Shown piece after piece: positions 22,984 through 53,097 of a stretch of 64,000 nucleotides of DNA (its first letter is position 1; each line of letters starts with the position of its first letter). The notes under the pieces were generated by a model that saw only the letters and a list, made by a program, of their open reading frames with translations, was not told where the DNA came from and searched no databases. Both the position numbers and the translations under genes were made by a program. The stretch spans positions 1 to 64,000 of the forward strand of contig NZ_CP044217.1 of the NCBI RefSeq assembly GCF_008727715.1, given 5' to 3'. The stretch is from Mesorhizobium terrae (GTDB lineage: Bacteria > Pseudomonadota > Alphaproteobacteria > Rhizobiales > Rhizobiaceae).

Positions 22984-26308
<3,325 letters not shown>

Positions 26309-26906: not shown

Positions 26907-27413
26907 TCAGCTTTTGATTGCAATACGTTTCGCCTGCGACTGGGCTTTCGCCGTTTTCGGCAAGGTCACGGACAGGACGCCGTTCTTGAAGCGGGCGTCG
27001 ACACTGTCTTCCTCGATCTCGTAGCCGAGGGGGATACGACGCTCGAAGCGGCCGTAGGTGCGTTCCGAGAACTGCCGGTCCTTGTCCTCAGTCTCCGAGC
27101 GCTTCTCGCCCCGCAGCGTCAGCACACCGTTATCGAGCATGATCTCGATGTCCTTCTCGTCCATGCCGGGCACTTCAGCCGTCACCTTGATCTCTTTGTC
27201 ATTGTCGGAGATCTCGACGCTCGGCCAGTTCCCGCCGAAGGCGGATGCCCTGCCGACGGACGGCAGGGCGCCGTCGAAGCCGCGGAAAACGTCGTCGAAC
27301 AGCCGGTTCACTTCGCGGTGCAGCGACAGGAACGGATCACGCTCGCTGTCGCGGAACAGGCTCGGGACGCGACTCTCCTCGCGTCCCCAAGGAATAAGAT
27401 CGCGTACGCTCAT
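26907..27413 (-). CDS. Hsp20 small heat-shock protein
   Basis: This is a 168-residue alpha-crystallin-domain chaperone of the plant-like class A found in rhizobia. The N-terminal arm is MSVRDLIPWGREE..REVNRLFDDVFRGF. The crystallin domain spans about 60-155 (WPSVEISDNDKEIKVTAEVPG, GVLTLRGEKRSE, FKNGVLSVTLPKT). The ATG at 27413 follows AAGGAG by eight bases; an ATG two codons earlier is too close to it. It is downstream of a second Hsp20 gene on the same strand and holds unfolded protein for refolding by the GroEL encoded nearby. Confidence 0.93.
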   Translation of the reverse strand: MSVRDLIPWGREESRVPSLFRDSERDPFLSLHREVNRLFDDVFRGFDGALPSVGRASAFGGNWPSVEISDNDKEIKVTAEVPGMDEKDIEIMLDNGVLTLRGEKRSETEDKDRQFSERTYGRFERRIPLGYEIEEDSVDARFKNGVLSVTLPKTAKAQSQAKRIAIKS

Positions 27414-27501
27414 CGTCATTCTCCTTTCGTCAGTCTCGCTATCATCTTTGACAAATCCGTCCGCCGCCGGACGTCCGGCGCCAGACTTCATCCGCATTGC
27501 C

Positions 27502-28002
27502 TCAGGCGGCTTGCTTGTCAGCGATCTGCTTGCCCACGGCCTTGGCAGTCCCAGCCTCGATACGGGACCCGGCTTTGCCGCTGCTGCTGCCGATCTCGAT
27601 CTTGCGCGGCTTCATCTCCTCGGGAATCTGGCGCTGGAGATTGATCGTCAGCAGGCCGTTGACGAGACCAGCTCCGGTCACCTTCACATGATCGGCAAGC
27701 TCGAAGCGGCGCTCGAACGGCCGCCCGGCAATGCCGCGATGCAGATAGTCGCCGTTGTCTTCCGTCGTTCTCTCGCCGGAGACGACAAGCATGTTGGGCT
27801 CGTGTACGATGCTTAGCTCTTCCTGGCCGAAGCCAGCCACCGCCATGGTGATGCGGTAGGCGTCTTCGCCTGTCCTGGCGATGTCGTAGGGCGGCCAGTT
27901 GTCGACGCTCGGCGTCCGGCTCGCGTTCTCCAGCAGGTCGAAAACACGATCGAAGCCGATGCTCGACCGATAAAGCGGGGAAAAATCGAATGCGGTTCTC
28001 AT
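27502..28002 (-). CDS. Hsp20 small heat-shock protein (IbpA-like, class B)
   Basis: This is a 166-residue IbpA-like small heat-shock protein opening MRTAFDFSPLYRSSIGFDRVFDLLE. Its crystallin domain has YRITMAVAGFGQEELS and HRGIAGRPFERRFELADHV. ATG 28002 lies eight bases after GGAGG. The leader RNA shows ROSE-like thermometer features. It is the first gene of a two-gene Hsp20 operon; class A and class B small Hsps often form mixed assemblies. Confidence 0.93.
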   Translation of the reverse strand: MRTAFDFSPLYRSSIGFDRVFDLLENASRTPSVDNWPPYDIARTGEDAYRITMAVAGFGQEELSIVHEPNMLVVSGERTTEDNGDYLHRGIAGRPFERRFELADHVKVTGAGLVNGLLTINLQRQIPEEMKPRKIEIGSSSGKAGSRIEAGTAKAVGKQIADKQAA

Positions 28003-28100
28003 AGCCATATCCTCCATTGCTGAGCAACATGGGTACGAGGAGCGCCAAGGATGAGCGCTCCTTGACCTTGCCGACCCTAAAAGGGCGCCGGCGGATTCGA
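28003..28100 (-). promoter_or_regulatory. ROSE-like RNA thermometer in Hsp20 leader
   Basis: The leader of the Hsp20 operon contains TTGCT about ten bases before the GGAGGA ribosome-binding site. This matches the UYGCU box that pairs with AGGA around a bulged G in rhizobial ROSE elements. A perfect 8-bp hairpin AGGAGCGC / GCGCTCCT lies further upstream (about 28060-28038), as expected for the multi-hairpin ROSE layout. At low temperature the site would be masked. Confidence 0.55.
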
Positions 28101-28230
28101 TCTGGGAATTCGCTTTCCGCGCGTCAAGAGGTCGATCGCGGAACGTCCTTCGCCGACGCGCATTGTCTTGCCGTCGCCGGCGTGAATCTTCCGGTCAGCA
28201 CCTTCCACATCAATGCGCAGGAGAGCGACC

Positions 28231-28446
28231 ATGTCCATGACGCGGGAAGAGATCGTATCGGTCCTTGGGCCGACGGACGAAACGCTCGTCGCCGACATCC
28301 TGTCCACCGGCGCTTCCTTCGAGGAGCTGCGGGAAGCCTGGGCCTGGCTCAACGGCGACGAGGCGCTGATGGGCGAGGGGCGGCCGCTGCCTGGAACGCG
28401 CGTCGCAGAACTGATCGATCTGCTGGATGCCGACGAGGACGATTGA
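28231..28446 (+). CDS. Small conserved acidic protein
   Basis: This 71-residue protein begins MSMTREEIVSVLGP and continues with ADILSTGASFEELREAWAWLNGDEAL and an acidic end LLDADEDD. The ATG at 28231 has GGAGA six bases upstream. Similar short proteins accompany heat-shock genes in rhizobia as far as I recall, but no function is known. It is divergent from the Hsp20 operon. Confidence 0.65.
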   Translation: MSMTREEIVSVLGPTDETLVADILSTGASFEELREAWAWLNGDEALMGEGRPLPGTRVAELIDLLDADEDD

Positions 28447-28571
28447 GCGTTCCGGTGCCAGCGTAGACGGTCTTGATGTTCCGCGCTGCGTCCCCATCTC
28501 AACCATAGATGCGCGTAGACGACGCCATCCGATTGCTTGCTCGCAAAAGACGTCCAAAAAAGGAGGAAGTG

Positions 28572-28892
28572 ATGAACGACGTTCGGTTTCCCGAACCTGT
28601 TACCCTCAAGTTTCCCAACGCTTCACGCAATGTCGCCAGCAGCTTTGAGGCGCTGGAGTGTCTGGACCAGCAGTGGCCCGAATGGGCGCGCGGGCGGAGC
28701 TGGCGCGTGGCGGAACGCGCCTGCCGGGATGCGCTAGACGGATGGCGCAGCGCACGCGACGCCCACAAAGCCTTCCTCAAGGCGGCCAAACGGGCTGGAT
28801 TGGTCCCGGCAGTGCGCGCTTCCCGTAAATCGCGTCCGGCACCGATGATCGACGGCCTGCGACCCGAGATGAGCTTCAGTGGATGGCGATGA
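28572..28892 (+). CDS. DUF982 family protein
   Basis: This 106-residue DUF982 protein has FPEPVTLKFPNASRNVASSFEALECLDQQWPE and RVAERACRDALDGWRSARDAHKAFLKAAKRAGL, the usual two blocks. The start at 28572 follows AAAGGAGGAAG. Its 3' end overlaps the convergent usg-like gene by 17 bases. Function unknown; it is one of four DUF982 genes in the window. Confidence 0.82.
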   Translation: MNDVRFPEPVTLKFPNASRNVASSFEALECLDQQWPEWARGRSWRVAERACRDALDGWRSARDAHKAFLKAAKRAGLVPAVRASRKSRPAPMIDGLRPEMSFSGWR

Positions 28893-29154
28893 CGCCGTCG
28901 ACGGCCCGCCACTCCGACGGCTCAATGAGGCGATGGTGGGCGACGCGCACGGAGTGCAGCGCGCCCTCCAGTTCACGCTCCCAGTAGCCGAGGAAGCCTT
29001 TCAGTTCCGGAAAGTGGGGCGCCAGATCGTATTCCTGCCAGACATAGAGCTGAAGCAGGCTCGGATGGTCGGGAAGATGGTAGTGGATCTCGGCCGTGGT
29101 GAGGCCGTAGCCTTCCATCTGCAGGCGGAATCCCCTGCTGACCGCAGTGACCAT
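28876..29154 (-). CDS. usg: Usg family protein
   Basis: This 92-residue Usg protein has GYGLTTAEIHYHLPDHPSLLQLYVWQEYDLAPHFPEL and FLGYWERELEGALHSVRVAH (both longer runs are given only as their key parts). Usg was named from its place upstream of a trp gene in other bacteria; its function is unknown. It is followed on the same strand side by another small rhizobial gene starting at 29520. Confidence 0.85.
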   Translation of the reverse strand: MVTAVSRGFRLQMEGYGLTTAEIHYHLPDHPSLLQLYVWQEYDLAPHFPELKGFLGYWERELEGALHSVRVAHHRLIEPSEWRAVDGVIAIH

Positions 29155-29178
29155 TTGCGTCTCCTCTGCCTCAGGCCT

Positions 29179-29520
29179 TCATGCATCCAGATGATCGGAA
29201 GTGTGCCGTCGATCACCTGTCGAACGTGGTGGCGCAGCCGCCCTGTCGAGCCGGCATAGCGCGTCCATGATCTGGTCGAAGGAGACCGGCTGCTCGGCCC
29301 CCGGCGGCCGACGCAGCGCCGGGACGGATTCGACGGCGCAGGCATCGGAGGCCCAGGACGACAGGATCGCCCGCTTCTCCTGAATGTCGAGCGCATCGTC
29401 GTTCAGGACGTCGTCGGGATGCCTGAAATGCCTGGCCGGCGACAGCAGCCGGTCAAGCGCAAGGTCGGATGTTTCGGGAACGAGAGAGGGAATAATCGGT
29501 GTGGGATTCTGTCGGTCCAT
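29179..29520 (-). CDS. Conserved rhizobial hypothetical protein
   Basis: This 113-residue protein contains LDIQEKRAILSSWASDACAVE and the tail VSFDQIMDALCRLDR, a pattern I have met in small rhizobial proteins near DUF982 and heat-shock genes. The ATG at 29520 follows GGAGGATCAAG, so the 17 codons upstream in the same frame are excluded. It lies 24 bases upstream of usg and probably shares its transcript. Confidence 0.7.
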   Translation of the reverse strand: MDRQNPTPIIPSLVPETSDLALDRLLSPARHFRHPDDVLNDDALDIQEKRAILSSWASDACAVESVPALRRPPGAEQPVSFDQIMDALCRLDRAAAPPRSTGDRRHTSDHLDA

Positions 29521-29675
29521 CTTGATCCTCCGTCTTTCCAAAAAGCTCCTTTGCACAGGTTTCGACTTCACAGCCTCACCTATGGCGAAGCTTGCGATAA
29601 TTTTGTTCGACCGGCCGGAAAATTCAAGCGGGAAACGCGCTGCCGCACTCCGATTAGCCGCGTGTTTTCATGGCA

Positions 29676-29702
29676 CTAGCACTTGATCGGTGCGAGTGAC
29701 AA
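29676..29702. promoter_or_regulatory. Degenerate CIRCE (HrcA operator) upstream of groESL
   Basis: CTAGCACTT, nine bases, then GAGTGACAA resembles CIRCE (TTAGCACTC-N9-GAGTGCTAA) with two mismatches in each arm and the exact 9-base spacer. It lies 155 bases before groES, near where its promoter would be. HrcA repression is therefore likely but perhaps weak. Confidence 0.6.
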
Positions 29703-29856
29703 AAATTTTTGCGAAGCCTCTTGAAACCGGAAATTCGTAAAACTAGCTCGATATGCGCGCGATGCCGAAAGGGTCGCGCGAGCCCCGCACCGGTCCAATA
29801 TTGCTGGTCCGGTGTGGAGGAACTTCAACAATCTGTTTGTCCTGAAGGAGAACGAT

Positions 29857-31858
<2,002 letters not shown>

Positions 31859-34791: not shown

Positions 34792-37700
34792 TTAACCGCT
34801 GGCGTTCGCTGCGTCCGCGGGCCGGACCCAGACGATCTCATCGTTCGTCAGATAGACAATTGCTCCGCGTTTGGCGCCCGTCGCAGAGAGATAATCGTGC
34901 AACTGCTGCACGTGTGCCTCGCGATCCGCAGGCGTGGGATTCACGTCGGATTTCCAATCGATCGCAGCATCGACTTGGTTTTCTATGATCGCCAACGCGT
35001 CGGCGCGCCCGGCGATGAGACCGCTCTCGTCGTGTCCCCAGATTGCGATCTCGGGCACGAGGTAGGACCGGAGATCGGCAATCTGTGGCAAGGCAAGCCC
35101 GCGAAGCGCGGTTGCGCCCATCTCACGGGGATCCGGGCGCGGTTCGTTGTCGTCGCCACCTGAAATCAGTTGATCGAGTAGTTCACCAGCGCGGGAAACG
35201 CTCGCGTCGAGTGCTGCTGCAAGCTCGCCGGTCAGAAACTCTTCCATCAACTTGTGAAGGATGACGCCGCGGCGTGCTCCGGCGCCGACCACCTCGAGAT
35301 GTTCGATGTGACTCTCCAAGGCCACGGCGCCCTCGATAGGATCGCCAAGCCGGTCGGCGTCATGCTCGCTGGGCCGGCGCCAGGCAATCGGCGGCGCGCT
35401 CTCCACGACGGATCGTTGCTCGGCGGCAAAAATGTCCGAAGACTGTCCGTTTGGCTGAGACGCCGGTCCCGCCATTTCGCGCGGAGCAAAGGACGTAAGA
35501 TCCAACTCGGGAATGTCGTGCTGACGCAGGTCTATGGAGCTGAACCAGGAATCTTTGGACGCCTGGGGAATATGAGGGAGGACCAGGAGGTCCCGTGCCC
35601 GTGTGCAGGCGACGTACCAGATCCGCTCGCGTTGATTGCCGTCTTCCAGGTTTTCAACGGCGCGCGCTGCAGCCAATTCCGGCGGCGCGACGCCACCGAG
35701 CATCCAGTGCAGGCTGTTGTCGGATTGCCGGTGCACGAACTGGTCCGGCCGGTAGAGTTCGGTCGTGGAATTGACCGGAATGACGACCGGCCACTCCAGA
35801 CCCTTGGCGCTGTGGATGGTGACGATGTCGATAGCGTCCGCCGCGGCGTCGATGCGTCCTTCCTGCGCCCGGGCCTTACGCTCCCAATCCGACTGGAGAT
35901 CGCGAATGAATGCGCGTAGGCCAGTGACCGAATAGCTGCGTGCTCGTTCGATCAGAGCGTCCAGGTTGGCGAGAGCGCGGGCATTACGATTGCCATGTCG
36001 CGCGGCCATGATCACGCGGATGTTCAGACGTTCGATGGCCTCCGCCAGGATCTGACTCGGCGTCACGATCGAGGCCCGTCGACGAAGTTGTTGCAGCTCG
36101 ACGAGAATTTGTCTTGCCACTTGATGCTGAATCAGTTCCGGGTCCGTCCGGACGGTGAAAAAACTCTCGCCATCGTCCTTAGCGGCAACAGCCGCAGTGA
36201 TGTCGAGCAGCTCTTGTTCGCTGAGGCCCACCAGCGGTCCTCGCATCAGCGCGCCAAAGGCCAGCGTGTCGGAGGAATCCGCCAGGACCCGCAAGAGCGC
36301 CAGGATATCCTGCGTTTCCTGCCGCCGCATCAGCGTCTGGCCGGCCTGCGAGGATACCGCGAGGCCGCGCTGCTCGAGCGCCCGCTCGTAGCGCCACAGT
36401 TCGGTATGACCTGGCGAAAGCAGCGCGATGTCGCCGGCCCGAAGCGGCGTGCATGTCTTGTCCGCGCGTTTTATCGACACGTTGCCGATCAAGGCGACGC
36501 AGATGTCGGCAACGCGCTCCGCTTCGGCCTCCCGAAACATCTCCGCGTAGATGCGCCCCTCGGTCGCCACTTCGACCGTGAAGCGGGCCACGCAGGGAAG
36601 CGGGTGTGACGCTTCGAACAGCGTGGGTGCTAGCGCGACATATCGGGGCTGCGAGGGCTTGGCAAAGACTGGCTCGAAGCAGGCGTTCACATGCTCGATG
36701 ATCGGGCTCAGCGATCGGAAGTTGGCGGTGATCTCGAGTACCGCGCCATGATCCTGGCCATCTATCAGGCGGCGACAGAGTTCGTAAGCTTCGATGTCGG
36801 CGCCGCGGAAACGGTAGATCGCCTGTTTCGGATCGCCGACAAGGAAGAGCGCTCCGGGCCGCACCTCTGACTCCTCCCATTTTGCGTGCTGAGCTTCGAT
36901 TGCGGCGATCGAAAACAAGATCTCGTTCTGGATGCCGTCCGTGTCCTGGAATTCGTCAACCAGGATGTAGCGATAGCGCTGACCGATGGCCTGGCGCACC
37001 TCCTCGTGGTCCCGTACCAGCGAACGGACGTGTATCAGCAGGTCGTCGAAATCCAGGACGGCGGCCGCGCGCTTGCGTGCCTTGTAGCTTTCGAGCAACT
37101 GGTCGAGCGACGTTGACAAGGAGCAGACGAGCGTGCTGGCGATATGACCTATGAGTTCGTTCCAGGCGATGACGACTGTCTCGTATATCGTTTGGCCGTC
37201 TCCTGAGCCGACGTCGTTGCGGTGAGCGCCGAAGCCTCGGACCGCATTTTCGTAGGCTTTGAGTTGGAGGCCTTTGCGCTCGAAGAGTCGACTGGTTCCC
37301 GGATCGCAAAGCCGCCACAGGGTTCCGAACTCCGCCTTGCTTGCGAGGCAATTCTGATAGCGCTCGGCGAGTCGGCGCAATTCGTGCGCGATGTCGGAAA
37401 GCCATTTGTCTGGCTCGATGCTCGCCTGCCACCGGTCGAAATCATCCACCGCCTGGACGAAATCGATGTCAGGCCTCGCCTCGAGCGACGGCGGGATTGG
37501 TTGGGCATCGGGGTGCTTGCGCCGAAGGCTCGCGAGTTCCCGAATGAGATCGACGACCTGAAGGGGGATTTCCTCGGCCAGCACCACGATCGGGTCGCCT
37601 TCTACTGCGTCTATCGCGAGCCGTCGCGAGAACCAGGCCGACAGCTCGGCCGTGAACAGATTGTCGGCGACCGTCGCATCGACCACACGGGCGCCGGGGT

Positions 37701-38097
37701 CGAGGCCTGCCTGCACGCCATGGCTGCGGATGATCGCCTGGCAAAATCCATGAATCGTCGTCGCCGTTAGCTCATCCAGGCGAGGAGAGGCAGCGACAAG
37801 CGCATCGCGCTGCTGCTCCGAAAGGCCCTGCGGCAGAACGGACTTCAGAAAAGCAGGAACATTGCCCGCCAGCAGCGTGTCGATCGTCTCCCTGATCCGG
37901 CGCGCGAGCTCGCTCGCCGCGAGTTCGGTGAAGGTGATTGCCGCGATGTCATCCGGTTGATGGCCGGCAGCGAGCATCATTGCCACGCGACCGGCCATCA
38001 GCGAGGTCTTGCCGGTTCCGGCGGCCGCCTCCACCAGCAGGATCGACAAGAAATCGGTCATGGCCCTGCAACGGGCCTGCTGGTCGACAAGCATCAT
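34792..38097 (-). CDS. AddA-like UvrD-family helicase with C-terminal PD-(D/E)XK nuclease
   Basis: This is a 1101-residue superfamily 1 helicase-nuclease. Walker A VEAAAGTGKTSLMAG (near residue 25), Walker B VDEFQDTDGIQ, VGDPKQAIYRFRGAD, TIHSAKGLEWPVVIPVN and WYVACTRARDLLVLP give all helicase motifs. The C-terminal part (last 160 residues) has GVILHKLMEEFLTG, AGRADALAI and AAIDWKSD, a RecB/AddA-type nuclease site. The ATG at 38097 overlaps the stop of the AddB-like gene; a GTG five codons earlier also fits. It likely works with the AddB-like protein to degrade or process DNA ends. Overlap and placement beside OLD-UvrD suggest defence more than housekeeping recombination. Confidence 0.88.
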   Translation of the reverse strand: MMLVDQQARCRAMTDFLSILLVEAAAGTGKTSLMAGRVAMMLAAGHQPDDIAAITFTELAASELARRIRETIDTLLAGNVPAFLKSVLPQGLSEQQRDALVAASPRLDELTATTIHGFCQAIIRSHGVQAGLDPGARVVDATVADNLFTAELSAWFSRRLAIDAVEGDPIVVLAEEIPLQVVDLIRELASLRRKHPDAQPIPPSLEARPDIDFVQAVDDFDRWQASIEPDKWLSDIAHELRRLAERYQNCLASKAEFGTLWRLCDPGTSRLFERKGLQLKAYENAVRGFGAHRNDVGSGDGQTIYETVVIAWNELIGHIASTLVCSLSTSLDQLLESYKARKRAAAVLDFDDLLIHVRSLVRDHEEVRQAIGQRYRYILVDEFQDTDGIQNEILFSIAAIEAQHAKWEESEVRPGALFLVGDPKQAIYRFRGADIEAYELCRRLIDGQDHGAVLEITANFRSLSPIIEHVNACFEPVFAKPSQPRYVALAPTLFEASHPLPCVARFTVEVATEGRIYAEMFREAEAERVADICVALIGNVSIKRADKTCTPLRAGDIALLSPGHTELWRYERALEQRGLAVSSQAGQTLMRRQETQDILALLRVLADSSDTLAFGALMRGPLVGLSEQELLDITAAVAAKDDGESFFTVRTDPELIQHQVARQILVELQQLRRRASIVTPSQILAEAIERLNIRVIMAARHGNRNARALANLDALIERARSYSVTGLRAFIRDLQSDWERKARAQEGRIDAAADAIDIVTIHSAKGLEWPVVIPVNSTTELYRPDQFVHRQSDNSLHWMLGGVAPPELAAARAVENLEDGNQRERIWYVACTRARDLLVLPHIPQASKDSWFSSIDLRQHDIPELDLTSFAPREMAGPASQPNGQSSDIFAAEQRSVVESAPPIAWRRPSEHDADRLGDPIEGAVALESHIEHLEVVGAGARRGVILHKLMEEFLTGELAAALDASVSRAGELLDQLISGGDDNEPRPDPREMGATALRGLALPQIADLRSYLVPEIAIWGHDESGLIAGRADALAIIENQVDAAIDWKSDVNPTPADREAHVQQLHDYLSATGAKRGAIVYLTNDEIVWVRPADAANASG

Positions 38098-40745
38098 GTC
38101 GAGGCGCTCCACAGCCGGTTGAGGGGTTGGTTCGCCACCCGGAACTCGGAGGCCTTGCGGCGCAGATAACTTTCACGATCGGTGGGAAGGGCAAGGCGCA
38201 TATCGTCATATTCGATGTCCTGCTCCCAACGCGGTGCGATCCGGCCGCTGCGCAGGATCGTCATAGCCGCCGACAGATAGCCCACCGCCTCGCCCACCGC
38301 GCCATCGAGCTCGTCACCCTTCAGTTCGAAAGTTATGGGATCGTCGGCGAGATAGACGAGGCGCGCCATGACCGTCCTGACTTCCGGCAGCAGCGCACGT
38401 GCCGCGATCGCGTACAGCACGCGCTGCAGTTCCCGTCCCTGGCCCAATGCGATGCGCTGATGCTTTGGCGGCGGCTTGGCGCTCTTGTAATCGGTGATGC
38501 GCGCGCCGTCGCCCGTGGCGCGAATATCGAGCCGGTCCATGCGGCCGCCGAACACCAGCCCGGTTTGTCCGATCGGCACAACAACCGCCGTGTCCCACGG
38601 TGCCTCTTCCTCCGTGGCATGCAGCTGGCCGAACGGCACCTCCGTCCAGCTGCGCGTATCAGGTCTGACCTGATCGTCGGCGGCAAGGCCGCGGGCGGTG
38701 CGACGCGCGGCCTCTCTCACCGTATGGCGCCACAGGATTGGTGGCGGAACGGAACGCTGCAGTGGCCAGGCGTGCAGGATCGCCCTCGAGGCGTCCATGA
38801 TCGCAGCTTCGATCTCGTCGGCGCTGGCGCGCGCGAACCCCGGCGTCGGCTCGAGCGCGGCGATGGCGCCGCCGATCAGCTCATGCACCAGCTCGCCGAA
38901 TGAGGCTGCACCAAGCTGCAGCGGGTCGGATTGGAACCGGATAGAGCGCCAGCCCAAGGCGTAACGCCAGACAAATCCAAGCGGATCGCGCAGGAGGCGC
39001 TGCAGCGACGTCGTCGACTGGACTCGCGCCAAAGCCCTCTCGATCGCCGGATGATCGGCGCCGGAGAGACCGTCGTGCGGCGTCAATGTCGAAGGCCTTT
39101 GCCAGTTGCGCCAGCAAAGCTGGCTCTGGCGAACATGCGCGAGCTGGCCGGCATCGCGCGGCCGCGCCAAGAGCCTGTCCGCTTCGCTGAAAGCATGTCC
39201 CGGGATGCGATCGCGCTTATGCACGATCTCGTCCGATGGCCAGAGCGAACTTGGCGACAGGACGCCGCCCTTGGCGTTGCGAAGCGAGCGCGACAGAACG
39301 AGTTGTTGACGAGTGTGCGCCTTGATGATCTTGAAATGCTGTCGGTCGCGGTCGGCGACCCCTACGGGATGCAGTCTTCGGCGGTCGAGCAGATGGTGCG
39401 GCAGCAGCGGATCGTCGTTTTCCGAACGCGGCCAGGACCGGCTGGTGAGGCCGAGCAGGCGGGTATACGGTCGCGGACATGCAGCCAGTTGCAAGGCGGG
39501 GCACCAGACGACGCTATTGGCCGGGTCACGCTGATCGGCGACGCGCAACGCCTGCAAGGACAGGCCGATGGCTTGTGCCGGCGCGCTTCGCAGTGCCTCT
39601 TCCCACATTGCCAGGCTGGCCCCGCTCAGCAATCGCTTGCCGGCCTCTCCCGCTATGTCGGCTCCGCGCGCGAGAAGTTCGAGAACGGGAAGCAGGATCT
39701 GCTCGCCAAGCTCGCCGCCCCTACGCTGCGGCCTCGCCGCAGCCAGCACTTCGCGCCACTGGTCGAGGCTGCGCAAGCCGGCACCGCGGGGGATCGCAAC
39801 GAACCAGTCCGAGGGAATCTGGCCCGCGAACGGGTGCACGGGCAAGCGCCGAACCAAGCGCCACACCCGCTCCTGGTTGAGCCCGTTTGCGAGAATGTCG
39901 GCCAGTGCGGCACAGGCCTGGCCCTCCGGCGTGCTCAAGGCGGGCACGCCGTGAGAGAAATGTAACGGCAATCCGGCGCTTCGCGCATAGGCCAGGAAAT
40001 GATCGTCCCAGTCCTGCGTCGACGTCGCGGCAATGGCGATGTCCTTTGCATGTACCTCGCCTGAGGCGAGCAACTGGCGTGTCCAGCGCAACGCCTCGAT
40101 GACCTCCGACTTGGGGTCCGCGCTCGCTTCGACGGTTGTTCGGGCCGGAGTAGTCGCGGGCTTCTTCCGGATCGACCCTCTGAACCATGTTTGCTCGACC
40201 GGGGTCGGCAACTCCCAGGTGAAATCGGTGACGCGTGCGAGCTCGTTGACAAGCGGTTGCCAAAGAGGATCGACGTCCCCCAGACCCGACAGCGTCACTG
40301 AACCCAGCAGTCGGTGCGCGAGATCAATGCGCTTGCCGGCGGAGTCCCGTAGATCGCGTGGCAACATGTGCGCGGGTGGAATGTGATCACGGATGTAGTT
40401 CTCGATGCGATGAAGATCACCGAACCGCGGCGCCTCGTCCGCCAATGAGGATAGATCGAGATCTGCCCGCCAGGCGCAATCCAATGCATGGAGAACGGCG
40501 CGTGGCATCCCCGGCAAGCCGGCTACGGGTCCAATGTCGCCAAAACTCTGGGACGCGAGCGCGGCCTGGATCGCCGGGTAGAGCACGTCGGTGCCAGCCG
40601 GCGTGGCGAAACCTCCGACCAAGCGTGCCGCCAGCAGGGGCAGGGTGACGATCTCTCGACCGATCGCTCCTTCCCGCGCCGCAGCGGCGCGGGCGCTACG
40701 CAACGCCAGCATGCCGTCGACGACGTGGGTAGAGCGAATGGGCAT
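38094..40745 (-). CDS. AddB-like PD-(D/E)XK nuclease subunit
   Basis: This 883-residue protein is organised like AddB/RexB: a long inactivated-helicase N-terminal part without a Walker A and a C-terminal RecB-like nuclease with FGGRMDRLDI (near residue 735), ITDYKSAK and RELQRVLYAIAARAL. The nuclease residues look intact. The four cysteines that hold the iron-sulfur cluster in classical AddB are not visible. The ATG at 40745 follows CGGAAG; an upstream GTG at 40793 is possible. It precedes and overlaps the AddA-like gene and is divergent from the OLD gene. Confidence 0.82.
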   Translation of the reverse strand: MPIRSTHVVDGMLALRSARAAAAREGAIGREIVTLPLLAARLVGGFATPAGTDVLYPAIQAALASQSFGDIGPVAGLPGMPRAVLHALDCAWRADLDLSSLADEAPRFGDLHRIENYIRDHIPPAHMLPRDLRDSAGKRIDLAHRLLGSVTLSGLGDVDPLWQPLVNELARVTDFTWELPTPVEQTWFRGSIRKKPATTPARTTVEASADPKSEVIEALRWTRQLLASGEVHAKDIAIAATSTQDWDDHFLAYARSAGLPLHFSHGVPALSTPEGQACAALADILANGLNQERVWRLVRRLPVHPFAGQIPSDWFVAIPRGAGLRSLDQWREVLAAARPQRRGGELGEQILLPVLELLARGADIAGEAGKRLLSGASLAMWEEALRSAPAQAIGLSLQALRVADQRDPANSVVWCPALQLAACPRPYTRLLGLTSRSWPRSENDDPLLPHHLLDRRRLHPVGVADRDRQHFKIIKAHTRQQLVLSRSLRNAKGGVLSPSSLWPSDEIVHKRDRIPGHAFSEADRLLARPRDAGQLAHVRQSQLCWRNWQRPSTLTPHDGLSGADHPAIERALARVQSTTSLQRLLRDPLGFVWRYALGWRSIRFQSDPLQLGAASFGELVHELIGGAIAALEPTPGFARASADEIEAAIMDASRAILHAWPLQRSVPPPILWRHTVREAARRTARGLAADDQVRPDTRSWTEVPFGQLHATEEEAPWDTAVVVPIGQTGLVFGGRMDRLDIRATGDGARITDYKSAKPPPKHQRIALGQGRELQRVLYAIAARALLPEVRTVMARLVYLADDPITFELKGDELDGAVGEAVGYLSAAMTILRSGRIAPRWEQDIEYDDMRLALPTDRESYLRRKASEFRVANQPLNRLWSAST

Positions 40746-40842
40746 CGGGCTTCCGTGTGTTCTTTCAGCGGGCACTTGATCGCCTAAAATCACCGGCTAT
40801 TGAAGATCAGGGCAAAGAAAAACTTGGGCTTTGGGGATGGAA
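40746..40842. promoter_or_regulatory. Divergent promoter region between the two nuclease-helicase pairs
   Basis: Fewer than 100 bases separate the start codons of the AddB-like and OLD genes. The region must hold both promoters and so offers one point of common control. No confident -35/-10 pair or operator was assigned. Confidence 0.45.
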
Positions 40843-42630
40843 ATGCAGCTAACCAAGCTGAGCATCAGGAATTTCAGGAACTTTCAGTCGATCGACGTCA
40901 CGCTGGCCGGCAATGTCGTGCTGCTCGGCGAGAACCGGGTTGGCAAGAGCAATCTCCTCTTCGCTATCCAGCTCATCCTCGATCCGACCCTGCCCGATTC
41001 GGTACGACAGCTGAAGCTCACCGATTTCTGGGATGGCGGGCCGGCCGACCATAGCGCGGCGATCGAGGTGCATCTGGAAATTTCCGATTTCGCTTCCGAC
41101 ATGGCCTTGACGGCGCTCCTGACCGATTTTCGGGCACCGCATGATCCAAACATCGCACAGCTTAGCTATGTCTTCCGCAAGAAGTCGGACGTTGCCGGCC
41201 CGCCCCAATCGGGCGCTGATTGCGAATTCCTGGTCTTCGGTGGTGGCGACGAAACGCGTTCGCTGCCGAGCAAGGTGCGGCGCCGTATTGCGATCGATCT
41301 GCTCGACGCCTTGCGGGACGCCGAAGGTCAGCTCGGCAGCTGGCGGGCCTCCCCGCTGCGCCATCTTCTCGAAGAAGCCGTCTCGGGCGTCAGCCGTCCG
41401 GATCTCGATGCTGTAGCGGCCGAACTCGACAAGGCGAGCAAGGCCCTCGAAGCTTTTCCGACCATCAAGACACTTGAAGATGAACTGCGCGCCGGAATCG
41501 CCCACCTGTCCGGAAAGGCGCACGACATCGACGCCCGTTTGCGATTTGCGCCCGCCGACCCGCTGCGTCTCTTCCGGGCGATTGCGATGTTCATCGACGG
41601 CGGCAAACGTGGCATCGCAGAGGCCAGCCTCGGATCGGCGAACGTTGCGCTACTGGCGCTGAAGCTCGCCGAATTCGCGTGGCGCCGCAAGAAAAACGAG
41701 CGCAATTTCTCGCTCCTCTGCATCGAGGAACCGGAGGCGCATCTTCACCCGCACCTCCAGCGATCGGTTTTTTCCAAGCTGCTTGGCAAGGCCGAAGCTT
41801 CCCAGGCCGTGATCGTCACAAGCCATTCGCCAACCGTGGCTGCGGTCGCGCCGTTGCGATCGATCGTTCAGCTGAAGAGGAGAGGGGGCGCGACGCAGGC
41901 GTTCTCATTGGCGCATCTTCCGGTGACGCCTGACGAGCTCGACGATCTGGAAAACTATCTTGATGCGACGCGTGCCGAACTGTTGTTCGCGCGCGGCGCC
42001 ATCTTCGTCGAAGGCGATGCGGAGGAAGCGCTCATGCCCGTCTTCGCCACGTCGCTCGGTCACCCGCTCGACGATCTCGGTATCACCGTCTGCAACGTGG
42101 CCGGCACGAACTTCCGTCCTTACGTCAAGCTCGCCGAGGCGCTGGCGCTGCCCTATTGCGTCATCACCGACTGGGATCCGCTCGACGGGAGCAAGCCACC
42201 TCTGGGCAAGAAGCGTACCTTTGACCTGTGGCAGGACATGCTCACCGTTCGTGGCAAGCCCCTTCTCACCGCGGCTGAGCTGGCGAAATGGGAAGCAGCA
42301 GATTATGCGGCGTTCAGCGCCGATGCGGCCAAGTCGGGGATATTCCTCAACGAGCAGACATTCGAAGTTTCCGTCGCCAATACGCCTACCTTATTGAGCC
42401 CGCTTCTCGATATTCTGAGCGAGCAGGATTTCGGTTCTGTCAGGACTAGGCGCATTGCTGCCTGGCGTGCGGGTACGCCGGTCGTTCCTGAGCAGCTGCT
42501 GGCCATGGTCGCGAGCGTCGGCAAGGGACGCTTGGGCGCTCGGTTGGCGAAGAAATCGGCTGGGCTCAAGCCCCCAACCTACATTGAGAGCGCCATCAAC
42601 AACGTCGTCGGCTTGGTTGCTCATGCTTAG
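40843..42630 (+). CDS. OLD-family ATPase with TOPRIM nuclease domain (GajA-like)
   Basis: This 595-residue OLD protein has an N-terminal ABC-type ATPase with Walker A LLGENRVGKSNLL (about residues 26-38), Walker B LLCIEEPEAHLHPHLQ (about 291) and H-loop IVTSHSPTVAAV. A TOPRIM domain with IFVEGDAEEAL (Glu, about 389) and VITDWDPLDG (Asp pair, about 442) follows. OLD proteins of class 2 sit beside a UvrD helicase; the pair GajA-GajB is the Gabija phage-defence system. Start: ATG 40843 after GGGGA, with 40837 and TTG 40831 as alternatives. Its stop overlaps the helicase start. Confidence 0.9.
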   Translation: MQLTKLSIRNFRNFQSIDVTLAGNVVLLGENRVGKSNLLFAIQLILDPTLPDSVRQLKLTDFWDGGPADHSAAIEVHLEISDFASDMALTALLTDFRAPHDPNIAQLSYVFRKKSDVAGPPQSGADCEFLVFGGGDETRSLPSKVRRRIAIDLLDALRDAEGQLGSWRASPLRHLLEEAVSGVSRPDLDAVAAELDKASKALEAFPTIKTLEDELRAGIAHLSGKAHDIDARLRFAPADPLRLFRAIAMFIDGGKRGIAEASLGSANVALLALKLAEFAWRRKKNERNFSLLCIEEPEAHLHPHLQRSVFSKLLGKAEASQAVIVTSHSPTVAAVAPLRSIVQLKRRGGATQAFSLAHLPVTPDELDDLENYLDATRAELLFARGAIFVEGDAEEALMPVFATSLGHPLDDLGITVCNVAGTNFRPYVKLAEALALPYCVITDWDPLDGSKPPLGKKRTFDLWQDMLTVRGKPLLTAAELAKWEAADYAAFSADAAKSGIFLNEQTFEVSVANTPTLLSPLLDILSEQDFGSVRTRRIAAWRAGTPVVPEQLLAMVASVGKGRLGARLAKKSAGLKPPTYIESAINNVVGLVAHA

Positions 42631-44404
42631 CGACCGGGCCCTACTTCAAGCCTTGGCTGAACTCAAGGGCAACCCGGAGCAGGCGGCCGCGGTCGTGGAG
42701 AAGGGTCATTGCGTGGTGCTCGCCGGCCCGGGAAGCGGCAAGACCAAGACGCTGACGACGGCGATGGCGCGCGCGCTGATCGAGGATATTCCTGATCCGC
42801 GCGGGGTCGCCTGCATTACCTACAACAACGACTGCGCGATTGAACTGGAAACCAGGCTCGCGCGCTTGGGGATCACCCCGGGCGACCGCGCCTTCATCGG
42901 CACCGTGCACAGTTTCGCGCTGAGCCAGGTTATCGGTCCCTACGCGCGTTGCGTGCCCATTGGGCTTCCGCCAGACTTCAAGGTCGCAAGCAAATCTCAG
43001 ATGAAAGCTGCGGTCGAAACGGCCTACCAGAACTCGATCGGCAGTTACGGCAACCCGCACGACCGATGGAAGTTCGCTTCGGAAAAGCGCCTTCGCGATG
43101 TCGACCGCACGCGGCCCGAATGGCGGGGACACAATCCGGAGCTGGCGGATTTCATCGAAGCCTACGAGGTTGAGCTGCGCCGGCAAGGCTTGATCGACTT
43201 CGACGACATGCCCCTGATCGCCTATCGCATGATCAAGGCGAATGGCTGGATCCGCAACGCGCTTTGCGCTCGCTTTCCTGTGTTGTTTGTCGACGAATAC
43301 CAGGATCTCGGTCACGCGCTGCATGAGCTCGTCCTGCTGCTCTGCTTCGGAGGAGGGATACGGCTCTTCGCGGTCGGCGACACCGACCAATCGATCTATG
43401 CCTTCGCCGGCGCCAATCCCGAACTGCTGGAAAGCCTGACACGCCGGCCCGATGTGCGGATTATCAGGCTTCGCTTCAATTACCGGTCGGGCGCGAAGAT
43501 CATTCGGGCTTCGCTCGGCGCGCTTGGTGAGGAACGCGACTATCGCGGCATCGACGGCGCGCCCGACGGCGATCTGAGCTTCTGGCCGGTTCCCTATGGA
43601 CACGACAACCAGGCTGACACGATTGCCGGCACAATCATTCCCAAGCTTGTGGAACAAGGATTCGAGCTTGGAACAATCGCGGTTCTTTATCGGGCCGCCT
43701 GGCTCGGCGACAAGGTGGCGGCCGCCCTGAAAGAGGCGGGGATCCCTTTTGTCCGGACCGACACGAATGCGCTGGTCAAGAGAAGCTCCCGGCTGGCGCG
43801 CTTCGTCGAGGAATGCGCTCGCTGGATCACCGGCGGCTGGCGCAATGCCGAACCGCCATACGCGCGGATGCTCTCGCAAGCGCTGACGCTGGTCTACGGG
43901 CGCCACGCCAGCGAACGCGAAGAGCAGGAGCTGTCCGCGCAACTCATGGGGTTCCTCAACGCCTCGCTCGCAACCGTCGAGACGACCCACGTCTGGCTCC
44001 AGCGCTTTTCTCGTGAACTTGTTACGCCGTGGCGCAAGATTGCGCGCAACTCCGAACAGGAATGGGACGTCTGTGCGGAAATGATCGCCAATACCGATCC
44101 GGCCCGAGACCTCGATCTTCCCTTGGCGCACTTCGCCGGGCGGGTCGAGGGATCGGGTCGCGTCAACCTTAGCACCCTGCATAGTGCCAAAGGCAGGGAG
44201 TTCGACGCAGTCATCATGTACGGCGTAAACGCTTCCGACTTTCCGAGCGCGCGTGATCAACAGACTCCCGCGAGCCTTCGTGAGGCCAGGCGCTTGTTCT
44301 ATGTTGGGGTGACGCGTCCGAAAAAACACCTCAGCCTGGTTTTTCAGGAGCACCACCACTCACCATGGGTCTTCGAGCTGTACCAGCGAAGTCAGCAGAA
44401 CTGA
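42623..44404 (+). CDS. UvrD-family helicase paired with OLD nuclease (GajB-like)
   Basis: This is a 593-residue superfamily 1A helicase. Walker A VVLAGPGSGKTKTLT (near residue 34), VDEYQDLGHALHEL, FAVGDTDQSIYAFAGANP, RFNYRSGAKII, LSTLHSAKGREFDAVI and RRLFYVGVTRPKKHLSLVF are all present, so it should be an active motor. It begins eight bases inside the OLD gene, which implies coupled translation and a stable partnership. It is about 100 residues longer than typical GajB. It is the last gene before the right 25-bp repeat. Confidence 0.9.
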   Translation: MLSDRALLQALAELKGNPEQAAAVVEKGHCVVLAGPGSGKTKTLTTAMARALIEDIPDPRGVACITYNNDCAIELETRLARLGITPGDRAFIGTVHSFALSQVIGPYARCVPIGLPPDFKVASKSQMKAAVETAYQNSIGSYGNPHDRWKFASEKRLRDVDRTRPEWRGHNPELADFIEAYEVELRRQGLIDFDDMPLIAYRMIKANGWIRNALCARFPVLFVDEYQDLGHALHELVLLLCFGGGIRLFAVGDTDQSIYAFAGANPELLESLTRRPDVRIIRLRFNYRSGAKIIRASLGALGEERDYRGIDGAPDGDLSFWPVPYGHDNQADTIAGTIIPKLVEQGFELGTIAVLYRAAWLGDKVAAALKEAGIPFVRTDTNALVKRSSRLARFVEECARWITGGWRNAEPPYARMLSQALTLVYGRHASEREEQELSAQLMGFLNASLATVETTHVWLQRFSRELVTPWRKIARNSEQEWDVCAEMIANTDPARDLDLPLAHFAGRVEGSGRVNLSTLHSAKGREFDAVIMYGVNASDFPSARDQQTPASLREARRLFYVGVTRPKKHLSLVFQEHHHSPWVFELYQRSQQN

Positions 44405-49060: not shown

Positions 49061-50197
49061 TTAATCTGCAAATAGCAGAAGCTGCCGATCGTCGTCGCTG
49101 CCGTTCCCATCAAGCGACGACAGCGTCACACCGATCAATCTGATGCCTTTTTCGGTGGGGAAGAGCGGCGCCATCAGGGCGGCCGCCACTCCCTCCAGGT
49201 CGATGACGCTCGCGATGAGACCACTCGCAGTCCGGCTGCGTGTGATCTGGTGGAAATCAGCGTACTTGACCTTCAGCGTCACCGTCCGGCCGCGAATCCC
49301 CTTGGCTTCGCAATAGCCCCAGACCTTTGAGGCAAGCGTCGAGAGTTCGGTTCGCGCCGTCCCAATGTCGAATATGTCGGTCGGGAACGTGTCTTCCGCC
49401 CCGACCGACTTGCGCGGCCGGTTCGGTTCGACCGGACGATCATCGATGCCGCGGGCAATCCTGTAGTACCACGTGCCCGACTTCCCAAAATGCTCCTGAA
49501 GGAATGACAGCGGCTTGTCACGGAGATCCACGCCGGTCGCGATCCCCAGACGCTCCATCTTGGCCGCCGTCGCCGGACCTACGCCATGGAACTTCTTGAC
49601 GGGCAGGCTCGCCACGAAGTCCGGCCCCATCTTCGGCGTTATCACGGCCTGGCCGTTGGGCTTATTGAGATCGCTGGCCAGTTTCGCCAGGAACTTGCAG
49701 TACGAAATGCCAGCCGATGCGTTGAGGCCGGTCACTTCCTTGATGCGCGCGCGAATGATGGTAGCGATCTCCGTCGCGACGGCGATGTTCTGCTTGTTGA
49801 TCGTAACGTCGAGATACGCCTCGTCCAGCGATAGCGGCTCGATCAAATCGGTATGCTCGGCAAAGATCTCGCGGATCTGCGCCGACACCGCCCGGTAGAC
49901 GTCGAACCTCGGCTTGACGAAGATCAGTTCCGGACAGAGGCGCTTCGCGGTTGCTGAGGGCAGTGCCGATCGCACTCCGAAGGCGCGTGCCTCATAGCTT
50001 GCGGCCGCAACGACGCCGCGGGCGGCCGAGCCACCGACCGCGACCGGCTTTCCGCGCAGCTCCGGATTGTCCCGCTGTTCGACCGACGCGTAGAAGGCGT
50101 CCATGTCCACGTGCAAGACGCGGCGATGCAGGGGAGACGGGCCGTCCTGTCCCAGGGCTCCGCTGACGCCGATGCGGTGGTCCGTGTCTTCTATCAT
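49061..50197 (-). CDS. dinB: DNA polymerase IV (Y family)
   Basis: This is a translesion polymerase of about 378 residues. Catalytic blocks are VLHVDMDAFYASVEQRDNP (first Asp) and EPLSLDEAYLDVT (SLDEAY Asp-Glu), then NASAGISYCKFLAKLASDLNKP and the HhH region VKKFHGVGPATAAKMERLG. The C-terminal LLLFAD could serve as a beta-clamp binding peptide. Start: ATG 50197 before IEDTDHR; the frame continues to 50266 but without a clear site. It is divergent from the helicase gene. No LexA box was seen here. Confidence 0.93.
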   Translation of the reverse strand: MIEDTDHRIGVSGALGQDGPSPLHRRVLHVDMDAFYASVEQRDNPELRGKPVAVGGSAARGVVAAASYEARAFGVRSALPSATAKRLCPELIFVKPRFDVYRAVSAQIREIFAEHTDLIEPLSLDEAYLDVTINKQNIAVATEIATIIRARIKEVTGLNASAGISYCKFLAKLASDLNKPNGQAVITPKMGPDFVASLPVKKFHGVGPATAAKMERLGIATGVDLRDKPLSFLQEHFGKSGTWYYRIARGIDDRPVEPNRPRKSVGAEDTFPTDIFDIGTARTELSTLASKVWGYCEAKGIRGRTVTLKVKYADFHQITRSRTASGLIASVIDLEGVAAALMAPLFPTEKGIRLIGVTLSSLDGNGSDDDRQLLLFAD

Positions 50198-50355
50198 GGC
50201 GTCTTCATCGTCGCTGCATTGACCTTCTCGAGAAGATGGGCGGGAGCCGGTGGTATTCCAAATCACCGGCCCCGCCGGGGCTGGGGAATATTATTGCAGC
50301 TGTCCCCTACCGCAAATGTCAGGAGGCTTTCCCTTGGGCGGGACATCGCGGCAGG

Positions 50356-52500
50356 ATGACCGGGCCGATCCTTGTTGCGAACGAAACGGAAACACGATTC
50401 ATTCGCGCAATGAACCTCGCTGTCCTTGATTCGACCGTGGCCGCCGCGGCGCCAGACGACTACCTTGCCGGCCTCAACACCGAGCAACGATCGGCGGTGG
50501 TCCACGGCGAAGGCTCGGCCGCGGAGCCCCTGCTGATTATCGCAGGAGCCGGGTCGGGCAAGACCAATACCTTGGCGCACAGGGTCGCGCACCTGATCGT
50601 GAACGGTGCCGATCCTCGACGAATCCTTCTCATGACTTTTTCGCGCCGGGCCGCGGCGGAGATGACGCGCCGTGTCGAGCGCATCGCAGCCATGGTGCTC
50701 GGCGACAAGGCGTCGATCATGACCGAGGGACTCACCTGGGCAGGCACGTTCCATGCGATCGGAGCCCGGCTGCTGCGCGATCATGCGCTCGAAATCGGTC
50801 TCGACCCGGCCTTTACGATCCACGACCGGGAAGATTCGGCCGACCTGATGAACCTGGTACGGCACGAACTCGGCCTGTCCAAGACCGAGAGCAGATTTCC
50901 CGCCAAAGGCACCTGCCTTGCGATCTACTCGCGGGCGGTCAACGCGCAGGCCGAACTGGAAGCCGTGCTCGCCAAATCCTTCCCTTGGTGCATAGGCTGG
51001 GCCGAGGAGCTGAAAACCCTGTTCGGCGCCTATGTCGAAGCCAAGCAGGCGCAGAACGTCCTCGACTACGATGACCTTCTGTTGTGGTGGGCGCAGATGT
51101 GCGCGGAGCCGGCAATCGTGGAACAGCTCCGCTCGCGCTTCGACCACATCCTTGTCGACGAATACCAGGACACCAACCGGCTGCAGGCGACCATCCTGAC
51201 GGCGCTCAAGCCTGACGGCCGGGGGCTGACTGTCGTCGGCGACGACGCGCAGTCGATCTATTCCTTCCGCGCCGCCGAGGTTCGCAATATCCTGGATTTT
51301 CCAGGGCTGTTTCCGGAGCCTGCCCGTATCGTCACGCTTGACCGCAACTACCGGTCCACGAACACCGTGCTGGACGCGGCGAACGCGGTCATCGGCGAGG
51401 CGGCCGACCGCTTCATCAAGAACCTCTGGACCGAGCGGCGTTCCGCGGAAAAGCCGTTGCTGGTGACCGTGCGCGACGACGCGGAACAGGCGAACTATGT
51501 GTGCGACAAGGTGCTGGAGGAGCGGGAGAGCGGGACGAGGCTCCGGGCGCAGGCGGTTCTCTTCCGCGCCTCGCATCATTCCGGCCCTCTGGAAGTCGAG
51601 CTGACGCGCCGCAACATCCCGTTCGTCAAATTCGGCGGGTTGAAATTTCTCGATTCCGCGCATGTGAAAGACGTGCTGGCGCTTCTGCGCTTCGCGGAAA
51701 ACCCGCGTGATCGCGTGGCCGGCTTTCGCGTGCTTCAGCTCTTGCCCGGCATCGGCCCATCCGCCGCGGGTGCTGCGATCGAGGCGATGGAGCGCGCGCT
51801 CGATCCGGTCCTCGGGCTTCAGTTCTTCAAGGTGCCGGCAAGGGCGGACGAGGATTGGCCCCCCTTCGTCGACCTGTTCTCGGCGCTGCGCACACGGTCG
51901 ACCTGGCCGGCGGATCTCGAACGTGTGCGGCTGTGGTACGAGCCGCACCTCGAGCGTGTCCACGAGGACGCCGCCGCGCGCCGCGCAGACCTTCTCCAAC
52001 TCGAACAGATTGCGGCCGGCTATCCCTCGCGCGAGCGCTTTTTGACCGACCTGACGCTGGACCCGCCTGACGCCACGAGCGGAGATGCAGGCCCGCCGCA
52101 CCTCGACGAGGACTATCTCATCCTGTCCACGATCCATTCTGCCAAGGGCCAGGAGTGGACGAAGGTGTTCCTGCTCAACACCGTCGACGGCTGTATTCCG
52201 ATCGACCTGGCGGTCGGCGAGCGCGACGATCTCGAAGAGGAACGCCGGCTGCTCTATGTCGCCATGACGCGGGCAAAGGATTCGCTGCATCTGGTCACCC
52301 CGCAGCGCTTCTATGTCAGCGGGCAGTCGGCATGGGGAGACCGGCATGTCTACGCATCGCGCACGCGGTTTATTCCAGACCACATCCTCGACCGCTTCGA
52401 ACAGATTTCCTGGCCGCCGCCATCGGCCGCGCCCGGCAGGGCACCGCAGCCCGAGGTCCGGATAGATCTCAAGACGAAGATGCGCGGGATGTGGCGATAG
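50356..52500 (+). CDS. UvrD/PcrA-type ATP-dependent helicase
   Basis: This 714-residue superfamily 1A helicase carries Walker A IIAGAGSGKTNTLAHRV, DYDDLLLWW, VDEYQDTNRLQATIL, VVGDDAQSIYSFRAAEV, LDRNYRSTNTVLD, LSTIHSAKGQEWTKVFLLN and RRLLYVAMTRAKDSLHLV. No nuclease domain follows. It differs from the helicase at 42623 in lacking an OLD partner; its neighbours are dinB and the mutagenesis operon, so a repair role is likely. ATG 50356 or 50410 could be the start. Confidence 0.9.
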   Translation: MTGPILVANETETRFIRAMNLAVLDSTVAAAAPDDYLAGLNTEQRSAVVHGEGSAAEPLLIIAGAGSGKTNTLAHRVAHLIVNGADPRRILLMTFSRRAAAEMTRRVERIAAMVLGDKASIMTEGLTWAGTFHAIGARLLRDHALEIGLDPAFTIHDREDSADLMNLVRHELGLSKTESRFPAKGTCLAIYSRAVNAQAELEAVLAKSFPWCIGWAEELKTLFGAYVEAKQAQNVLDYDDLLLWWAQMCAEPAIVEQLRSRFDHILVDEYQDTNRLQATILTALKPDGRGLTVVGDDAQSIYSFRAAEVRNILDFPGLFPEPARIVTLDRNYRSTNTVLDAANAVIGEAADRFIKNLWTERRSAEKPLLVTVRDDAEQANYVCDKVLEERESGTRLRAQAVLFRASHHSGPLEVELTRRNIPFVKFGGLKFLDSAHVKDVLALLRFAENPRDRVAGFRVLQLLPGIGPSAAGAAIEAMERALDPVLGLQFFKVPARADEDWPPFVDLFSALRTRSTWPADLERVRLWYEPHLERVHEDAAARRADLLQLEQIAAGYPSRERFLTDLTLDPPDATSGDAGPPHLDEDYLILSTIHSAKGQEWTKVFLLNTVDGCIPIDLAVGERDDLEEERRLLYVAMTRAKDSLHLVTPQRFYVSGQSAWGDRHVYASRTRFIPDHILDRFEQISWPPPSAAPGRAPQPEVRIDLKTKMRGMWR

Positions 52501-52521
52501 CGCTGTCCCGGTATTCGGCCG

Positions 52522-52893
52522 TCATGCGGCCATGCGCCCGGCGTGACAGTCGATCTCGACGCAGCCGGCGGTGCTGCGCGCATTGATCGCCTTGCTGTCG
52601 GCGAAACCATGAAGGGCGATCGCCGCCAGATCGTCGCCGGCGCGGATCGGCCGGGACCACCAGCCGTCGCGATATCGCCATCCCGCCCGGATCACAGCTT
52701 CAGCGTCCTTGCTGTCGGGACGCAGATTGGCGGCCGCGTGAACGATGCGCGCCTCTGGCGACCTTTTCCTGAGCAGCGCGCGGCCTTCCGCTAGCGCAGC
52801 CTGCCGGTCGTCTGCCAGTACGAGCTGATGGAAATAGTGCCGCGATCGCTTCAGCGGCGTGAGATACGCGATCCTGACCTGAAAAGCCGCCAT
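52522..52893 (-). CDS. Hypothetical protein upstream of imuA
   Basis: This 123-residue protein opens MAAFQVRIAYLTPLKRSRHYFHQLVLADDRQ-like (key part YLTPLKRSRHYFHQLV) and is otherwise unremarkable: AEGRALLRKRSPEARIVHAA, GWRYRDGWWSRPIRAGDD. No family recognised. It is transcribed away from imuA; the LexA box at 53051-53065 lies about 160 bases from its start and might affect it. Confidence 0.55.
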   Translation of the reverse strand: MAAFQVRIAYLTPLKRSRHYFHQLVLADDRQAALAEGRALLRKRSPEARIVHAAANLRPDSKDAEAVIRAGWRYRDGWWSRPIRAGDDLAAIALHGFADSKAINARSTAGCVEIDCHAGRMAA

Positions 52894-53065: not shown

Positions 53066-53097
53066 ATATCACGGACAGAACAGCTTTCAAGGGATAG

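Follow-up and report, generated by a model that had tools for sequence, protein, structure and literature searches.

Gene content of the block

The window analysed here is a stretch of 64,000 nucleotides of Mesorhizobium terrae, which forms the start of a 293,638 bp contig; the genome consists of two contigs with 6.02 Mb altogether. Between positions 34792 and 44404 it carries two overlapping gene pairs that diverge from each other: a Gabija system on the forward strand and, on the reverse strand, a pair encoding an AddB-like and an AddA-like protein, called AddBA in the following. The four genes have a long history of common inheritance. Their nearest named relatives are found in Mesorhizobium and Tianweitania.

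The AddA-like protein (34792..38097, reverse strand, 1101 amino acids) starts at an ATG at 38097, an alternative GTG start being located at 38112, and its gene overlaps by 4 nt (ATGA) with that of the AddB-like protein (38094..40745, reverse strand, 883 amino acids, ATG at 40745). On the other side gajA (40843..42630, forward strand, 595 amino acids, ATG at 40843) and gajB (42623..44404, forward strand, 593 amino acids, ATG at 42623) overlap by 8 nt. The two pairs are separated by 97 bp (40746..40842), which presumably contain both promoters; the size of this gap is kept at all 12 divergent loci described below. The first-pass annotation of this DNA had likewise placed four open reading frames here, with overlaps in both pairs and a shared divergent region of less than 100 bases.

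GajA and GajB appear from their sequences to be a bona fide Gabija system, as had been proposed for this pair of an OLD-family and a UvrD-like protein. GajA consists of an OLD-family ABC ATPase and a TOPRIM nuclease (Pfam PF13175, AAA_15, and PF20469, OLD-like_TOPRIM) and matches the PADLOC profile PDLC00070 with 773 bits over positions 1-595 of 596; among solved structures it matches the OLD nuclease 6nk8 and GajA structures. The UvrD-like helicase GajB matches PDLC00117 with 797 bits (positions 3-602 of 604) and the UvrD-helicase family with 148 bits. The motifs of all four proteins were read by eye: in GajA these are GENRVGKS, EEPEAHLH, VTSHSP and the TOPRIM motifs FVEGDAEE and TDWDPLD, in GajB GPGSGKT, VDEYQD and the final helicase motif. 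Full-length matches to both models are thus found for adjacent genes on one strand.

The other pair resembles AddAB, as the first-pass annotation had held. The AddA-like protein combines a superfamily 1 helicase of the UvrD/RecB type (PF00580, 177 bits, and UvrD_C) with a C-terminal PD-(D/E)XK nuclease, for which the Pfam match (PDDEXK_1) is weak, 18.7 bits compared with a cut-off of 22. The helicase motifs AAAGTGKT (P-loop) and VDEFQD and the nuclease motifs H, D, DWK and QxxxY are present, and the closest solved chain is AddA, 3u44_A. The NCBI models recB and addA match with 259 and 203 bits, respectively, far below the equivalog cut-offs (for AddA, 202.6 compared with 707.65 and 199.6 compared with 860.75). 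The AddB-like protein is predicted to fold into a helicase-like scaffold and a nuclease domain, as AddB does; the structures were compared with VIA-align 2, and an earlier model built on 18 closely related sequences, with a low predicted local distance difference test of 54, was set aside. The AddB model matches none of it, and only TIGR03623 scores, with 28.7 compared with a cut-off of 299.6; no model of PADLOC 2023 matched at an E value of 0.01. As both proteins score below the equivalog cut-offs, we use the label AddAB-like.

All catalytic motifs of the four proteins had been considered intact. This holds for the AddA-like protein, GajA, GajB and the nuclease domain of the AddB-like protein (GELVHEL, GRMDRLD, DYK, QRVLY), but not for the helicase-like half of the latter, in which no P-loop was found by reading the sequence. 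The nuclease of AddB characteristically contains iron-sulphur cluster cysteines. No such cysteine set is visible in the AddB-like protein, and in an alignment of 54 sequences no cysteine is invariant, C544 being nearly so. Because both the P-loop and the cysteines are lacking, the helicase half is probably structural.

We considered that AddBA might be the housekeeping AddAB of the host and rejected this. The second contig, the chromosome (5,731,152 bp), encodes a separate AddB at 1535324-1538398 (TIGR02786, 1329.7 bits, cut-off 486.5), and an adjoining open frame of 1223 amino acids (1532250-1535231), presumably the chromosomal AddA, a RecB/AddA-type helicase, matches the AddA-like protein of the window. 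As the chromosome has its own AddB and RecB/AddA-type helicase, the pair in the window is an extra one. Its contig carries a gene for the replication protein RepC at 255437 and therefore looks like a plasmid of the repABC type. One scan of viral contigs gave no indication that phages carry the pair: of 31 stretches matching a pattern, none encoded a relative.

Conservation of the divergent unit and other pairings

A scan of contigs from the Genome Taxonomy Database (GTDB) yielded 76 AddB loci (numbered with L below). In nine of these, L053-L059, L062 and L063, Gabija lies divergently beside AddBA. Three plasmid records, pAtCFBP6623a, pRgalIE4872a and pMspAR07b (the record of L055), were added, and the resulting AddB tree of 96 rows contains 12 distinct divergent loci including the window, with L047 and L057 as near-copies. 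All trees were built with FastTree, and several long branches were flagged. The AddB tree leaves out 32 pieces with less than 700 profile positions (among them L049, L050/L064, L107, L109, L110, L117, L120, L124 and L127), and the GajA tree leaves out split or stub GajA (L045, L027/L170).

All 12 divergent loci fall into one AddB clade of 13 tips (Shimodaira–Hasegawa-like support, SH, 98), so that the linkage to Gabija holds in 12 of 13 tips with intact AddB. The thirteenth tip, Mesorhizobium B2-1-8 (L045), has a GajA stub of 87 residues at 11693-11953, 92% identical, beside intact AddBA; it is a natural loss of Gabija. In the GajA tree (37 rows) the 12 divergent copies again form one clade (SH 100), and this clade sits within a set of Gabija that belong to the same subfamily but lack AddBA (from Rhizobium tropici, Komagataeibacter, Sphingomonas, Azospirillum and Enterobacter). 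Pairwise protein distances are correlated (AddB-GajA, r=0.917; AddA-AddB, r=0.987), and values as high were reached in none of 2000 permutations for every protein pair except GajA-GajB (1 of 2000). With the gene starts projected from the window, the divergent gap measures 97-105 bp at all 12 aligned loci, which argues that the arrangement is not due to chance. The genes outside the four-gene block mostly differ between the loci, close relatives sharing some of them. The unit occurs in Mesorhizobium, Tianweitania, Bradyrhizobium (on the chromosome), Rhizobium, Agrobacterium and Ensifer. The first-pass annotation had expected the four genes to be conserved together, and within this clade the AddB and GajA trees and the gap size bear this out.

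In L170 (genome G366) a break in the reading frame divides gajA, the N-terminal two thirds being 82% and the C-terminal third 71% identical to the window GajA, suggesting a mosaic gene; no AddBA lies beside it. In Bradyrhizobium sp. 192 (L051, 7829-11815) a 1328-amino-acid protein with an nSTAND3 nucleoside triphosphatase domain takes the divergent place of Gabija; it had no match in PADLOC at an E value of 1e-5.

Gabija systems of other types are joined to AddBA as well. The tandem order gajA-gajB-addB-addA is found in L070 (GajA PDLC00100, 998 bits), whose placement is unsure because its join with L072 is a long branch, and in L095/L126 (GajA PDLC00097, 884 bits in L126). Convergent pairs are found in L096, L097 and L184 (Bradyrhizobium japonicum p1S06B), in the last with an IS66 element between gajA and gajB, and, with Gabija of the pTi type (PDLC04168, 739 bits) about 10-15 bp from addA, in L167, L173 and L175. 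L052 is a looser convergent case, with Gabija about 3 kb from AddBA. The GajA proteins of L095 and L096/L097 are 81-87% identical to that of L126, while the AddB lineages of L095/L126 and L096/L097 are distant from each other; this one Gabija type has therefore been joined to AddBA at least twice. On the AddB tree, with 21 rows linked to Gabija, 53 unlinked and 22 unknown, eight changes are needed, loci with short flanks being left uncounted. Gabija and AddBA have been joined repeatedly and separately.

Searching plasmids with GajA first avoids choosing loci by their AddB. Four of four full-length GajA of the window type (at least 80% identity) were linked to AddBA, although two of the four are A. 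tumefaciens near-copies; a fifth record (90-95% band), among the matches not listed, is presumably the B2-1-8 stub. For the pTi type (at least 66%) seven of eight records were linked by position, the annotation being inspected for R. etli CIAT 652; two R. phaseoli records of this set are near-copies, several gajA or addB matches are in pieces, and in the exception, a plasmid of AR07, AddB is about 214 kb away. For the L126 type the single record at 78% was linked and none of six at about 64%; three of these six were inspected, and the 59 plasmid records with AddB include none of them all.

Taken as wholes, the AddBA family and Gabija occur mostly apart, an outcome that had been named beforehand as speaking against a four-gene system, while particular sub-clades are tied. 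In a sample of the order (397 genomes) AddB was found in 13 genomes, GajA in 18 and both in two; this comparison is insensitive because the window GajA used as query missed other Gabija types. In G396, for example, only about 15 bp separate AddBA from a Gabija of the pTi type. In a sample of the family (394 genomes) GajA was found in 11, AddB in 22 and both in four (G000, G396, G517, G521); with these queries the two were next to each other only in G000 and G521.

The genes next to AddBA were surveyed with 101 proteins of 150-1500 amino acids from loci outside the window clade (L065-L128), at most one on each side and within 3 kb; the profile counts derive from the first 25 of 102 families. 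Models of GajB matched four to six of the 101 neighbours, the most among the PADLOC matches listed, with five true GajB and one piece of AddA (L110). The other PADLOC matches listed are Shango SngC, BilD, AbiEi and AbiEii (three each), PprPIWI and Mokosh MkoA (two each); a DRT5 reverse transcriptase adjoins AddBA in L065. Among the Pfam matches listed, RES-domain proteins (seven) are at least as frequent as GajB, and Ku occurs twice. AddBA is consequently a module of defence islands that has several partners, and among the matches listed Gabija is the commonest of those that PADLOC recognises; an enrichment of Gabija above the other neighbours is not proven.

Several of these neighbourhoods recur. 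At eight Methylobacterium and Methylorubrum loci, several of them near-copies, Shango-like genes (for a TerB-domain protein, SngB and SngC) precede AddBA and are codirectional with it, as judged by clustering with profiles run on L115 (L107, L113-L115, L118, L119, L122, L123); this is a possible Shango-AddBA unit. In L077, L085 and L106 BilD and further clustered genes are situated directly upstream of AddBA. A pair resembling an Xre-RES toxin-antitoxin lies just upstream at nine loci by clustering (L060, L061, L082-L084, L093, L109, L110, L116), its domains being checked in L082.

Other parts of the window contain an IS21-like istA/istB and a DDE transposase (22984-26183), a plasmid-borne heat-shock block with two HSP20 genes, GroES and GroEL (26907-31858), and two photolyase-family genes (16630-18165 and 20171-21628) near genes for ferrochelatase and TspO. 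Positions 49061-58572 encode a DinB/Pol IV-type polymerase, a UvrD-like helicase, an ImuB-like protein and a DnaE2-like polymerase, which we take to be an SOS-mutagenesis-like cassette. Together, the photolyases and polymerases give the plasmid the appearance of being rich in DNA-damage functions.

Possible roles of AddBA beside Gabija

We considered several explanations why a RecBCD-type enzyme is kept beside Gabija. The one we favour, tentatively and with a probability of about 0.4, is that AddBA is a dedicated, plasmid-borne partner of Gabija acting as its portable guard and licence. According to a preprint on P. aeruginosa (PMC12407980), recB- cells do not survive high expression of Gabija, both escape phages and host DNA are protected from Gabija by RecBCD, and phage proteins that bind DNA ends and so exclude RecBCD license Gabija. 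A review gives the same findings and states that self-targeting follows when Gabija is over-expressed or RecBCD is lost (PMC12904381). By analogy, AddBA would load on double-stranded DNA ends and process them like RecBCD or AddAB, and ends processed in this way would be poor substrates for Gabija. Ends blocked to AddBA by a phage end-binding or anti-recombination protein would be engaged by GajA-GajB. AddBA would thus both guard the DNA of host and plasmid and be the licence by which Gabija may call an end foreign; by destroying unblocked ends it would form a second barrier. On a plasmid moving between hosts, it would let Gabija rely less on the resident AddAB.

The nick-then-degrade order put forward in the first-pass annotation, with GajA nicking or cutting the invading DNA and AddBA loading on the ends and destroying it, is quite unlikely in our view. 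It agrees with the intact nuclease and helicase motifs, with the resemblance of AddBA to the end-loading AddAB and with GajA being reported to be a DNA nicking endonuclease (PMC8136825). In the P. aeruginosa study, however, RecBCD activity protects DNA from Gabija in vivo rather than completing its destruction, and Gabija functions there as two genes (PMC12407980). As RecBCD shields DNA in Pseudomonas, we prefer the guard and licence, which we infer from this analogy. An origin of the linkage in a shared insertion hotspot of repABC plasmids, AddBA serving plasmid maintenance or recombination in the manner of host repair, would fit the 39 conjugative and 11 mobilizable plasmids among the 59 records with AddB and the position of some AddBA near ScpB-DUF1403 or repABC genes. 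This is very unlikely, as at least one chromosome (L056) carries AddBA too, the core stays the same where the neighbouring genes vary, and the host already has chromosomal counterparts.

A number of observations weigh against the guard reading, and several of them favour two independent modules, AddBA being a stand-alone end-degrading enzyme of defence or recombination and Gabija a co-selected neighbour inherited with it without biochemical interplay. Gabija is present at only 14 of the 76 GTDB loci, a lower bound, since flanks are cut short at some loci and Gabija of other types could have escaped detection (nine loci with a UvrD-like frame but no GajA detected nearby, L075, L077, L085, L087, L090, L091, L106, L108 and L121, are uncounted). 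Most Gabija records seen, including those on plasmids, lack AddBA, and related Gabija (64-75%) are found without it nearby. AddBA mostly lacks Gabija as a neighbour and adjoins Shango, Bil, AbiE, DRT5, pPIWI or RES genes, so that it is not Gabija-specific, and it is intact where Gabija is reduced to a stub (L045). Furthermore, three copies with broken AddB (L049, L050, which equals L064, and L124), whose pieces are closest to the window clade, are all without Gabija; the unit has therefore been lost as well as kept, and the linkage falls to 12 of 16 when they are counted. The chromosomal AddB and RecB/AddA-type helicase might already guard self, and the RecBCD study concerns the host enzyme of P. 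aeruginosa, not a linked one (PMC12407980). Independence is nevertheless rather unlikely, though to be taken seriously: in the window clade the linkage is held while the outer flanks largely turn over, differing Gabija types were joined several times in differing orientations, and the GajA-first searches gave near-total linkage in three sub-clades.

The decay of the genes is only suggestive. Among relatives of at least 67% identity AddBA is intact at 11 of 12 loci with Gabija compared with four of eight without (Fisher, p=0.11). An apparently significant asymmetry (12 of 12 compared with four of eight, p=0.014) was rejected given the AddA frameshift in the Gabija-bearing locus L058. Within the window clade the numbers are 11 of 12 and one of four (L045 intact; L049, L050 and L124 broken), p=0.027 by hand, a post hoc value that is not relied on. 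The pattern leans the way expected if AddBA guards against Gabija without being significant, and joint decay of all four genes would give the same pattern.

A wider version, which we regard as unlikely, is that AddBA is a general mobile RecBCD equivalent defining self ends for whichever DNA-targeting system adjoins it (Gabija types, Shango, Bil, DRT5 or pPIWI), that is, a licence module of end-sensing immunity which such systems share and which plasmids carry between hosts.

As to the way in which Gabija spares host DNA, a 2025 preprint proposes that RecBCD activity on ends marks self. A Gabija with its own RecBCD-type enzyme, together with the repeated pairings, offers a compact system for testing this idea. 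Beyond this, it points to an ability of DNA-repair enzymes to travel as exchangeable components of defence systems, overlooked by finders of two-gene systems.

Comparison with known systems

The component families are known, and we rate the fixed Gabija-AddBA unit as an accessory-bearing variant of Gabija; in agreement with the first-pass annotation, no description of it was found in searches of the open-licence full text of PubMed Central. With Gabija it shares the OLD ATPase-TOPRIM protein and the UvrD helicase in the same order and strand, overlapping and with full-length PADLOC matches, whereas the window clade adds a divergent AddBA operon to the otherwise usual two-gene form. Like AddAB, RecBCD and AdnAB, AddBA has an AddA-type helicase-nuclease, the AddB fold and intact nuclease motifs. 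In contrast to them, its scores fall well short of the AddA and TIGR03623 cut-offs, its AddB-like protein lacks the P-loop and the iron-sulphur cysteines, and it is plasmid-borne and sporadic; the host of the window has separate chromosomal genes of this kind. The OLD protein of phage P2, a relative of GajA, is encoded by one gene and relies on the host RecBCD. It also responds to the loss or inhibition of RecBCD, as two articles state (PMC12407980, PMC12904381), whereas the window block encodes a RecBCD-like enzyme alongside. In Methylobacterium and Methylorubrum a defence system that is already known, Shango (SngABC), likewise stands just ahead of AddBA of the same family, with a different core system and in codirectional orientation.

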